Origin: an uncultured Alphaproteobacteria bacterium
Lineage (GTDB): Bacteria; Pseudomonadota; Alphaproteobacteria; HIMB59; GCA-002718135
Direction: 5' to 3'
Assembly: GCA_902571865.1 (NCBI GenBank)
Contig: CACGDO010000004.1
Location: forward strand, 1 to 64,000
DNA length: 64,000 bases
The notes beneath the pieces are model-generated. The model was not told where the DNA came from. It saw only the letters and a list, made by a program, of their open reading frames with translations, and made no database searches. Both the position numbers and the translations under genes were made by a program. The stretch's first letter is position 1. Each line of letters begins with the position of its first letter. Below, in pieces: positions 305 through 3,947 of this stretch.

Positions 305-354
305 AATATTCCCTGCAAAAAAGGGAAATATTACTATATGCGTTTTTTGCATAT
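305..354 (+). terminator. Two consecutive hairpins after the Gfo/Idh gene
   Basis: AATATTCCC at 305-313 pairs with GGGAAATATT at 323-332 with one bulge. A second stem, ATATGC/GCATAT, spans 336-354 around a run of six T. The first hairpin starts three bases after the stop codon, so a transcription terminator or 3' mRNA-stabilising structure is likely. There is no clean T-run directly after the first stem. The rest of the gene-free stretch 303-621 holds the promoter region and leader RNA of the following ammonium transporter. Confidence 0.5.
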
Positions 355-410
355 TAATGTTAACGATTATAATCTTACTAAAAATTAATATTAAACTAAA
401 TCAGTATTTA

Positions 411-460
411 CGTTCATCACCTTTTTGGGGTGACGGAAGTAGACGAAAGTCGAAGGAACG
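411..460 (+). promoter_or_regulatory. Glutamine-I riboswitch (glnA motif), aptamer 1 of amt copy 1
   Basis: CGTTC at 411-415 pairs with GAACG at 456-460 to form P1. P2 is the CACC...GGTG arm. The conserved core CGGAAGTAG follows, then a short P3 (GAC GAAA GTC), then CGAAGGAACG. This arrangement is the glnA RNA motif, a class of L-glutamine-binding aptamers known from cyanobacteria and marine metagenomes. It lies upstream of an ammonium transporter, a logical target for nitrogen control. Confidence 0.9.
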
Positions 461-478
461 CATGCAAAGTTATTAAAT

Positions 479-528
479 CGTTCAATTTGCCTAAGGCAAA
501 TCGGAAGTAGGTTAAAACCGAAGGAACG
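479..528 (+). promoter_or_regulatory. Glutamine-I riboswitch (glnA motif), aptamer 2 of amt copy 1
   Basis: This second aptamer starts 18 bases after the first. P1 is CGTTC/GAACG (479-483 with 524-528). P2 is ATTTGCC TAA GGCAAAT. The core is CGGAAGTAGG with P3 GG TTAAAA CC, then CCGAAGGAACG. P2 and P3 differ from the copy at 2521-2569 by compensatory changes, which supports the fold. Tandem aptamers suggest a sharper response to glutamine. Confidence 0.9.
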
Positions 529-545
529 CGGATCTTATTATTTAA

Positions 546-617
546 TTTCCATAGCTAAGCATGAAAAGTAACGCATGACTCAATGTGAGCCATGTACTGT
601 GAAATTTATAATGGAGG
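546..617 (+). promoter_or_regulatory. Expression platform of amt copy 1: hairpin and candidate anti-Shine-Dalgarno
   Basis: TTTCCAT at 546-552 can pair with the ribosome-binding stretch ATGGAGG at 611-617, counting two G-U pairs. A hairpin at 574-594 (CATGACTCA...TGAGCCATG, one mismatch) lies between them. The same three elements recur before the second amt gene although much of the surrounding sequence differs. This fits translational control by hiding the ribosome-binding site. The direction of switching (off at high glutamine) is inferred from the function of the gene. Confidence 0.5.
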
Positions 618-621
618 ATTA

Positions 622-1908
622 ATGTTAAAAAAATCTATATATTTCATTAGCATTCTTGCCGTCTTTATGCTCTTTAGTTCATATGCAAGAGCCGAAGTTG
701 ATGGTGAAGTGCAATACATTTTAAATACATTCCTATTTCTTGTATCTGGGTTCTTAGTCATGTGGATGGCAGCAGGATTTGCAATGCTTGAATCAGGACT
801 TGTTACGTCCAAAAGTGTAGCAACAATTGCTGCAAAAAATATAGGCTTATATTCAATTGCTGGCTTAATGTTCTGGTTAGTTGGATACAATATGGCATAT
901 GGCATCCCAGCAGGTGGTTTTATCGGATCTCCACTTCCTTGGAGTGATGGTAGCGCTCTTGATACAGGTTACTCAGATGGTTCTGACTGGTTCTTTCAGA
1001 TGGTATTTTGTGCAACAACATGCTCAATTGTATCTGGAACACTAGCTGAAAGAATCAAAATTTGGCCATTCTTTATTTTTTGTGCTTTATTAACTGGTTT
1101 CATTTATCCAATCGAAATGGGTTGGCAGTGGGGTGGAGGATACTTAGCGGAAGCTGGTTTCTCAGATTTTGCTGGTTCAACTCTAGTACATAGTGCAGGA
1201 GCAGCAGCAGCACTCGCTGGTGCAATTTTATTAGGTCCAAGATTAGGAAGATTTACTGATAGTGGTGAAGCATCTCCAATGGAACCTTTTGCAAATTCTT
1301 CAATACCTCTTGCTACTCTTGGTGTATTTATCCTGTGGCTTGGATGGTTCGGATTTAATGGTGGATCACAACTTGCAATGGGTACATTTGATGATGTTAC
1401 AGCAGTAGCAACAATATATATTAATACTAACTTGGCAGCTGGTGCAGGTGTAATGGCTTGTGCAGTAATTTCAAGACTAGTAACTGGTAAAACAGATGTT
1501 GTTATGATGCTTAACGGTGCATTAGGTGGTTTAGTAGCAATTACTGCAGAACCTTTAGCTCCTTCCCCATTCTTAGCAGTGATCATTGGTGCTATTGGTG
1601 GATTAATTGTCTTCTATGGAACAAGACTTTTAATTTCCTTTAAAATTGATGATGTTGTTGGAGCAATTCCTGTACACGGTTTTGCCGGAATTTTTGGAAC
1701 ATTAGTAGTTCCAATTTCAAACAGCGCAGCAAGTTTTGGAGCTCAACTTTACGGAATAGTAGCAATTAATGTCTTCGTTTTTGTCGTATCATTTATCATT
1801 TGGTACATTATGAAAATGTTATTTGGTATTAGAATCAGTGAAGAAGCTGAAAAACTTGGTACTGATAAATCTGAAGTAGGTGTTATGGCTTACAGCATCA
1901 GAGACTAA
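622..1908 (+). CDS. amt: Ammonium transporter, Amt family (copy 1)
   Basis: A 428-residue Amt/AMT channel for uptake of ammonium at the inner membrane. The ATG at 622 is chosen because GGAGG lies at 613-617 and because translation from there opens with a signal-like segment ending in ARAEVDG. Longer in-frame extensions would start inside the leader hairpin. The pore histidines are visible in GSTLVHSAGAAAALAG and in IPVHGFAGIFGTL, so it should be transport-competent. The mature N-terminal region contains MWMAAGFAMLESGLV, typical of this family. The C-terminal tail ISEEAEKLGTDKSEVG is shared with the second copy. The gene is preceded by two tandem glutamine aptamers. Confidence 0.95.
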   Translation: MLKKSIYFISILAVFMLFSSYARAEVDGEVQYILNTFLFLVSGFLVMWMAAGFAMLESGLVTSKSVATIAAKNIGLYSIAGLMFWLVGYNMAYGIPAGGFIGSPLPWSDGSALDTGYSDGSDWFFQMVFCATTCSIVSGTLAERIKIWPFFIFCALLTGFIYPIEMGWQWGGGYLAEAGFSDFAGSTLVHSAGAAAALAGAILLGPRLGRFTDSGEASPMEPFANSSIPLATLGVFILWLGWFGFNGGSQLAMGTFDDVTAVATIYINTNLAAGAGVMACAVISRLVTGKTDVVMMLNGALGGLVAITAEPLAPSPFLAVIIGAIGGLIVFYGTRLLISFKIDDVVGAIPVHGFAGIFGTLVVPISNSAASFGAQLYGIVAINVFVFVVSFIIWYIMKMLFGIRISEEAEKLGTDKSEVGVMAYSIRD

Positions 1909-2384: not shown

Positions 2385-2452
2385 TTTGATTTAATAATTA
2401 ATTTTAATACTATTTATTGATACTTTCCGAATTATAGTTATAAGTCAAATCA

Positions 2453-2502
2453 CGTTCATCACCCTTTTTGGGTGACGGAAGTAGACGAAAGTCGAAGGAA
2501 CG
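2453..2502 (+). promoter_or_regulatory. Glutamine-I riboswitch (glnA motif), aptamer 1 of amt copy 2
   Basis: P1 is CGTTC (2453-2457) with GAACG ending at 2502. The P2 arm is CACCC TTTTT GGGTG. The core is CGGAAGTAG, P3 is GAC GAAA GTC, then CGAAGGAACG. It is nearly identical to the aptamer at 411-460, with the P2 arm changed in a base-paired manner. Confidence 0.9.
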
Positions 2503-2520
2503 CATGCAAAGTTATAAAAT

Positions 2521-2569
2521 CGTTCAATTTGCAGCTTGCAAATCGGAAGTAGGTATACCCGAAGGAACG
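2521..2569 (+). promoter_or_regulatory. Glutamine-I riboswitch (glnA motif), aptamer 2 of amt copy 2
   Basis: P1 is CGTTC (2521-2525) with GAACG ending at 2569. P2 is ATTTGCA GCT TGCAAAT, and P3 is GG TATA CC after CGGAAGTAGG. Compared with the first locus, P2 loses one pair and changes others while keeping complementarity. This is direct covariation evidence for the structure. Confidence 0.9.
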
Positions 2570-2586
2570 CGGATCTTAGTAATTAA

Positions 2587-2654
2587 TTTCCATAGCTAAG
2601 CATGATGCAATGCATAACTAAAGGTTAGTTATGTGTCTATAATTTTATATGGAG
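2587..2654 (+). promoter_or_regulatory. Expression platform of amt copy 2: hairpin and candidate anti-Shine-Dalgarno
   Basis: TTTCCAT (2587-2593) can pair with ATGGAG (2649-2654) just before the start codon. The hairpin at 2613-2633 is CATAACTA/TAGTTATG. It is perfectly paired yet different in sequence from the corresponding hairpin of the first amt leader, which indicates that the fold is conserved. Confidence 0.5.
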
Positions 2655-2660
2655 TTAATA

Positions 2661-3947
2661 ATGTATAAAAAATTTTTTAGTCTTTTTACAATTCTCTCTT
2701 TTATTTTGTTGCTAAGTTCTTCTGTGAGAGCAGAGGTTGATGCAGAAGTAGCATATATATTTAATACATTTTCTTTTTTAGTTTGTGGTTTCTTAGTCAT
2801 GTGGATGGCTGCAGGATTTCTATTTTTAGAATCAGGACTTGTTACCACCAGAAGTGTATCAACTATTGCTGCTAAAAATATTGGAAAATTCGCAATAGTT
2901 TCAATTGTTTTCTATTTAATTGGATACAATCTCGGATATTCTGTCCCTGAAGGAGGCTATATTGGTACACCATCCATATGGACTGATAATACTTCAATGG
3001 AAACAGGTTACTCAGATGCTTCGGACTGGTTTTTTCAAGCTTTATTTGTTTGTGCTACTGTGTCTATTGTATCAGGTGCTGTAGCAGAGCGAATAAAAAT
3101 TTGGCCTTTCTTCACATTTGCAGCTGTACTTGGAGGAGTAATTTATCCAATTCAAATGGGTTGGGAATGGGGTGGAGGATGGCTAGACGCCCTAGGATTT
3201 GCAGATTTTGCTGGCTCGACATTAGTTCACGCTTGTGGTGGTTCTGCAGCTTTAGCAGGAGTAATTCTTTTAGGTCCAAGACTTGGAAGATTTAGTGCAA
3301 GTGGAGAACCAGCTAATATGGCTCCATTTGCTCCATCATCCATTCCTTTAGTTACATTAGGAACATTTATTTTATGGATGGGTTGGTATGGCTTTAATGG
3401 CGGATCCCAACTTGCATTAGGTTCTTATGAAGATGCAACTGCAATGTCAAAAATTTTCATGAATACTCAACTTGCAGCTTGTGGTGGATGTATGGCTGGT
3501 GCCGCAATAACAAGATTGATTGGGGGCAAAACTGATATTGTTATGATGCTAAATGGAGCTCTTGCAGGTTTAGTTTCAATAACAGCTGAGCCATTGATGC
3601 CTAGTCCATTGCTTGCAATTGGAATTGGAGTAGTTGGTGGAGTAATAATGTATTATGGAACTAACTTCTTAAACTCATTAAAACTAGATGATGTTGTTGG
3701 TGCAATACCCGTACATATGTTTGCAGGTATTTGGGGAACATTAGTTGTTCCTCTAACTAATCCTGATGCATCATACTCAATTCAATTACTGGGCGTTGCT
3801 TCAGTGTGTATCTTTGTTTTTGTTTTCTCATATATTGTAATATATCTAATTAAAAATATTATGGGATTAAGAATTAGTGAAGAAGCCGAAAAACTTGGTA
3901 CTGATAAAGCCGAGGTTGGAGTAGTAGCTTATTCAATTAGAGACTAA
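2661..3947 (+). CDS. amt: Ammonium transporter, Amt family (copy 2)
   Basis: A 428-residue paralogue of the upstream transporter with the same length. The ATG at 2661 is seven bases after GGAG and opens with a signal-like hydrophobic segment ending SVRAEVDAEV, matching copy 1. The pore histidines are in GSTLVHACGGSAALAG and IPVHMFAGIWGTL. The C-terminal tail ISEEAEKLGTDKAEVG is almost identical to copy 1. The protein sequences differ at many places, so this is not a recent duplication, but both genes kept the same tandem riboswitch leader. The two copies may differ in affinity or in glutamine threshold, which is inference. Confidence 0.95.
   Translation: MYKKFFSLFTILSFILLLSSSVRAEVDAEVAYIFNTFSFLVCGFLVMWMAAGFLFLESGLVTTRSVSTIAAKNIGKFAIVSIVFYLIGYNLGYSVPEGGYIGTPSIWTDNTSMETGYSDASDWFFQALFVCATVSIVSGAVAERIKIWPFFTFAAVLGGVIYPIQMGWEWGGGWLDALGFADFAGSTLVHACGGSAALAGVILLGPRLGRFSASGEPANMAPFAPSSIPLVTLGTFILWMGWYGFNGGSQLALGSYEDATAMSKIFMNTQLAACGGCMAGAAITRLIGGKTDIVMMLNGALAGLVSITAEPLMPSPLLAIGIGVVGGVIMYYGTNFLNSLKLDDVVGAIPVHMFAGIWGTLVVPLTNPDASYSIQLLGVASVCIFVFVFSYIVIYLIKNIMGLRISEEAEKLGTDKAEVGVVAYSIRD

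Follow-up and report, generated by a model that had tools for sequence, protein, structure and literature searches.

Tandem glutamine-I aptamers that probably share one translational platform upstream of ammonium transporter genes in GlnD-less Alphaproteobacteria of the order HIMB59

In Proteobacteria, nitrogen control by GlnD and PII links the glutamine level to amt and glnA. Glutamine is also the ligand of the glutamine-I riboswitch (glnA motif, RF01739), for which the class, the ligand, tandem copies, and Amt, glutamine synthetase (GS), and PII targets have already been published (PMC2864571, PMC9481103); neither the class nor its doubling upstream of amt is therefore new. In the described structure, ligand contacts are made by the C1:G59 pair, by G22, and by C58, and upon binding G23 is inserted and pairs with C60 (PMC6698751, PMC11477058). 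A 2018 review considered glutamine riboswitches to be restricted to cyanobacteria, with GS, PII, and Amt links confined to environmental sequence from uncultured strains (PMC6316151). A literature search that covered mainly titles and abstracts, with most subscription papers outside it, returned no report joining HIMB59 or AEGEAN-169 with a riboswitch. As far as the literature searched shows, what is new here is the host group, a four-operon regulon, the exclusion of GlnD within the order, and a conserved linker with a shared platform.

We analyzed a 64-kb stretch of DNA (the window) from an alphaproteobacterium of the order HIMB59, scanning its whole length with cmscan against Rfam 15. Exactly four matches exceeded the gathering score, all to RF01739 (54.0 to 64.4 bits against 35 bits; E, 4e-9 to 6e-12) and all on the plus strand. 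They form two doublets, one upstream of each of two proteins matching Pfam Ammonium_transp (Table 1). The initial annotation, made from the letters of the sequence, had proposed two complete glutamine-I aptamers in series ahead of a first ammonium transporter gene, the same arrangement ahead of a second copy, and an alphaproteobacterial host, all of which the covariance-model search, the protein matches, and the host lineage bear out. The leader that it had marked, 411-622, begins at the opening base of aptamer 1 (CGUUC) and ends with the A of the AUG codon of amt1 (622-624). Assignment to glutamine-II (RF01704) was considered and rejected, the score at 476-538 being 21.2 bits, under the 33-bit cutoff. 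The candidate amt1 promoter is weak, because the consensus scan found 3 such matches against 1.7 expected in shuffles. Between amt1 and amt2 lies a 124-amino-acid open reading frame (ORF; 2010-2384) that has no Pfam match and by eye resembles a small winged-helix regulator.

Table 1. Features of the amt1 and amt2 leaders and genes in window coordinates
Feature	Position	Strand	Basis
Possible amt1 leader promoter, TTTGCA-16-TATAAT	346..373	+	Consensus scan, 10 of 12
Glutamine-I aptamer 1 of amt1	409..464	+	RF01739, 64.4 bits
Inter-aptamer linker of amt1, CAUGC-AAA-GUUAU-UAAAU	461..478	+	Conserved; C461 is the C60 equivalent of aptamer 1
Glutamine-I aptamer 2 of amt1	477..532	+	RF01739, 64.3 bits
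S element of amt1, AUUUCCAUAGC-UAA-GCAUG	545..563	+	Complementary to linker, partly to ribosome-binding site
Hairpin H of amt1, between S and start codon	567..598	+	Consistent folding
amt1 ribosome-binding site AUGGAGG and start codon	611..624	+	Sequence
amt1, ammonium transporter	622..1908	+	Pfam PF00909, 326.9 bits
Glutamine-I aptamer 1 of amt2	2451..2506	+	RF01739, 63.4 bits
Inter-aptamer linker of amt2	2503..2520	+	CAUGC 2503-2507, GUUAU 2511-2515
Glutamine-I aptamer 2 of amt2	2519..2573	+	RF01739, 54.0 bits; weakest of four, P3 shortened
S element of amt2	2586..2604	+	Motif same as 545-563
Hairpin H of amt2	2613..2633	+	Folding
amt2, ammonium transporter	2661..3947	+	Pfam PF00909, 325 bits

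With contact-base numbering taken from the sequence in PMC5393176, we found equivalents of the ligand-contacting bases in both amt1 aptamers (C411:G460, G435, G436, C459, and C461 in aptamer 1; C479:G528, G503, G504, C527, and C529 in aptamer 2); the amt2 pair likewise retains the contact bases in both of its aptamers. Both amt1 aptamers look competent for glutamine binding by these residues, and the leader is predicted to bind glutamine; because the binding residues are intact, its control would be expected to depend on glutamine. The steepness that the initial annotation suggested for the response is conjectural. Across 78 unique leaders, the aptamer core and P1 are invariant, and P2 and P3 covary, with several standard pair types per position and few or no breaks. 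Given these invariant cores, the multitype covariation, and a total of 84 two-aptamer leaders in this genome and its congeners, the doubled arrangement is not due to chance.

The genome itself carries eight aptamers in four doublets, located upstream of amt1, upstream of amt2, between glnB and glnA, and upstream of an operon encoding CP_ATPgrasp_2, Alpha-E, and transglutaminase proteins. The 84 doublet leaders precede glnA (29), amt1 (21), the ATP-grasp operon (19), and amt2 (15), lying on the same strand as leaders of the nitrogen genes amt1, amt2, and glnA. The riboswitch targets comprise all of the ammonium-to-glutamine steps found plus one further operon; the initial annotation had no view of the two targets other than amt1 and amt2 or of the reciprocal absence of GlnD. 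True single aptamers in the genus number four, in addition to one apparent single aptamer cut by a contig end; these four, in four genomes, precede a divergent Amt, ∼30% identical to amt2, with a hairpin immediately ahead of the Shine-Dalgarno sequence. The ATP-grasp operon opens with a leader ORF of 16 to 25 amino acids in 19/19 genomes read (e.g., L038:3139-3201). The stop of this ORF overlaps the ATP-grasp start, often as TAATG, or lies within 8 bases of it. This arrangement suggests that translation of the two is coupled and that the riboswitch acts on the leader ORF.

Based on shared sequence, the host probably belongs to the genus AG-337-I02, a member of the AEGEAN-169 marine group within the order HIMB59 (PMC8692485). 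We found the linker pattern in at least 119 stretches of contigs from species-level genomes, and nearly all matches listed are from uncultured Alphaproteobacteria, one of them AG-337-I02. One contig, titled Chloroflexi bacterium RS659 and possibly misbinned, also carries the doublet linker; viral contigs yielded no tandem linker. The riboswitch was present in 36 of 37 genomes of the genus, in 0 of 24 genomes of the sister family in the same order, and in 6 of 385 genomes across the class; in a phylum sample of 399 genomes, it was found only in the genome studied here. Four of the six class matches belong to one other family, where the aptamer is single, and at both loci read in that family it precedes the same ATP-grasp gene. 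At one of these loci (L246:1500-1592), the aptamer is followed by CUCUUUC, which complements GAAAGAG immediately ahead of the AUG and so makes a simple anti-Shine-Dalgarno hairpin.

GlnD was encoded in all 24 sister-family genomes, in 277 of the 385 genomes of the class, and in none of the 37 genomes of the genus. Many of the genus genomes are incomplete (55 to 92%), which does not explain the absence of GlnD from all 37. Within the order HIMB59, riboswitch and GlnD are mutually exclusive, which amounts to one phylogenetic contrast rather than many independent ones. Outside the order, this exclusivity is not strict, since GlnD is missing from many riboswitch-free members of the class and at least three genomes of the single-aptamer family have both. 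No NtrC above its cutoff was found in the genomes of either the genus or the sister family. PII genes mostly number two in the sister family and at most one in the genus. One sister-family genome has glnK at a distance of 9 bases from amt and glnB at 44 bases from glnA, and no aptamer at either place. In the GlnD-bearing sister family, PII has the canonical T-loop; in the genus, the GlnB T-loop is altered (RGSTGGID..YDDEF; L039:2582-2923), although a tyrosine remains at about position 51. We consider the chances about even that an RNA glutamine sensor replaced GlnD in this lineage, with a shared-platform, dual-aptamer glutamine-I device gaining control over ammonium uptake and glutamine synthesis during the loss of GlnD and the second PII.

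The two Rfam matches within a doublet are separated by only 10 to 12 bases, and we found neither a terminator nor a second ribosome-binding site (RBS) between them. No intrinsic terminator was found on the plus strand in 300-700. We therefore rejected transcription attenuation; the sole terminator-like match there corresponds to hairpin H on the minus strand, and on the plus strand no T run follows this hairpin. Hairpin H has only 30% sequence identity between leaders yet folds consistently. From the spacing and the lack of a plus-strand terminator, it follows that both aptamers should act through one RBS. Each doublet thus combines a pair of like aptamers with one expression platform, and a dual aptamer with a shared platform fits better than two independent, terminator-separated switches; a separate platform of another kind for the first aptamer would have to fit within 12 bases. 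For this reason, we regard as quite improbable the view of the two aptamers as independent, pseudo-cooperative switches in series, even though this is how tandem glutamine riboswitches are generally described (157 doublets and 4 triplets are classed under pseudo-cooperative systems [PMC9481103]), since the short spacing is accompanied by conservation of the linker across nonorthologous leaders.

Linker identity between nonorthologous leaders is 78%, whereas P2 and P3, the hairpins of the aptamers, reach 29 to 45%. The linker CAUGC-AAA-GUUAU is complementary, in register, to a downstream AUAGC-UAA-GCAUG within the element that we term S, and in most glnA leaders the partner reads AUAAC, a one-sided U-G to U-A change. 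The linker:S duplex beat shuffled sequences in 11/11 leaders tested (P = 0.0015 to 0.006; about 0.003 for amt1 and 0.002 for amt2). RNAalifold places the CAUGC:GCAUG pairing around aptamer 2, a helix for which covariation gives no test because its bases never vary. S is also complementary to the start region of its own gene, through UUCCAU with AUGGAG in amt1, UUCCAUA with UAUGGAG in amt2, AUUUCAUA with UAUGAAAU in glnA, and CCAUAG with CUAUGG at the ATP-grasp leader ORF. Compared with shuffles, S:RBS complementarity was significant in 5/11 leaders (P = 0.015 to 0.036), including amt2 and the glnA of the same genome (P = 0.017 for each); it was not significant for amt1 (P = 0.09) or the ATP-grasp leaders and was absent from several of the latter. 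When S and RBS were swapped between leader classes, the own RBS was the best partner for glnA and amt2 and not clearly so for amt1 or the ATP-grasp leaders.

Overall, we think it probable that the two complete glutamine-I aptamers of the amt1 leader feed one translational platform, as part of a four-operon regulon in hosts without GlnD, and that the leader works as a glutamine-OFF device. Its likely function is repression of translation by glutamine. At high glutamine, both aptamers would bind ligand, and the bound leader would rearrange such that the RBS is blocked and ammonium uptake drops, with S serving as the putative anti-RBS strand. One possible step involves C461, which glutamine-bound aptamer 1 would take for its G23-C60 pair and which is also the outermost linker:S base. 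Reserving C461 in the folding model decreased linker:S pairing from 10.5 to 7.7 bp, with S:RBS pairing rising only to 0.25 bp, so further coupling would be required. Ensemble folding of the amt1 and amt2 leaders gave no shift in S:RBS pairing, with almost none in any state, and we rejected these ensembles as proof of a switch.

The linker:S helix persisted in all modeled states of the amt leaders, so ensemble folding predicts no switch and does not separate a switching helix from a permanent scaffold that holds aptamer 2 near the start codon. In that case, switching would proceed via another contact, such as S or the RBS with early codons; in the model, early coding sequence of amt1 does pair with the RBS region. 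We nevertheless lean against the scaffold, if not strongly, because S matches the RBS or start region of amt2 and glnA more closely than it does most other starts in the window, with 4/51 and 1/51 of these controls, respectively, being as good. An ON switch built on the same dual-aptamer device, in which glutamine stabilizes linker:S, S is kept off the RBS, and expression rises, seems to us unlikely. The glutamine riboswitch members so far tested, the gifB and DP types, are ON switches that activate expression (PMC6316151), which counts against the OFF reading. Likewise, glnA leaders with both aptamers imposed had a mean of 8.4 bp of linker:S pairing, up from 1.8 bp, and an RBS openness of 0.49, up from 0.42. 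However, neither the amt1 nor the amt2 leader showed this effect, and the known ON targets inactivate glutamine synthetase, whereas the targets here are ammonium uptake and glutamine synthesis, whose expression is expected to drop at high glutamine.

Among described systems, glutamine-I itself is the closest, sharing the aptamer sequence, structure, ligand-contact bases, tandem copies, and Amt-, GS-, and PII-linked targets (PMC2864571). It differs in that the host here is a HIMB59-order alphaproteobacterium rather than a cyanobacterium, in the conserved pairing linker, and in the ATP-grasp operon as a target, which we did not find in the literature searched. A host group, reported to be common in the surface ocean, can now be named for the GS, PII, and Amt links. 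Glutamine-II (Downstream-peptide) has a related core, and its short downstream ORF has a counterpart in the ATP-grasp leader; however, the second amt1 aptamer scores below the cutoff for that class, and the form here is a three-way junction, not a pseudoknot. Tandem glycine riboswitches likewise place two like aptamers, joined by a short linker, before one expression platform (as defined in PMC9481103), with a different ligand and fold. The short, conserved, self-complementary linker system of the HIMB59 leaders suggests a dual aptamer on one platform, in preference to two serial switches, and makes cooperativity testable.

Like GlnD/PII control, the regulon described here ties the glutamine level to amt and glnA. 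In contrast to that system, these genomes have no GlnD, no NtrC over the cutoff, and one PII with a changed T-loop, and sensing would be carried out by RNA in cis. An RNA sensor in one sister family where the other has GlnD would offer a testable case of RNA replacing a protein regulator in streamlined genomes.
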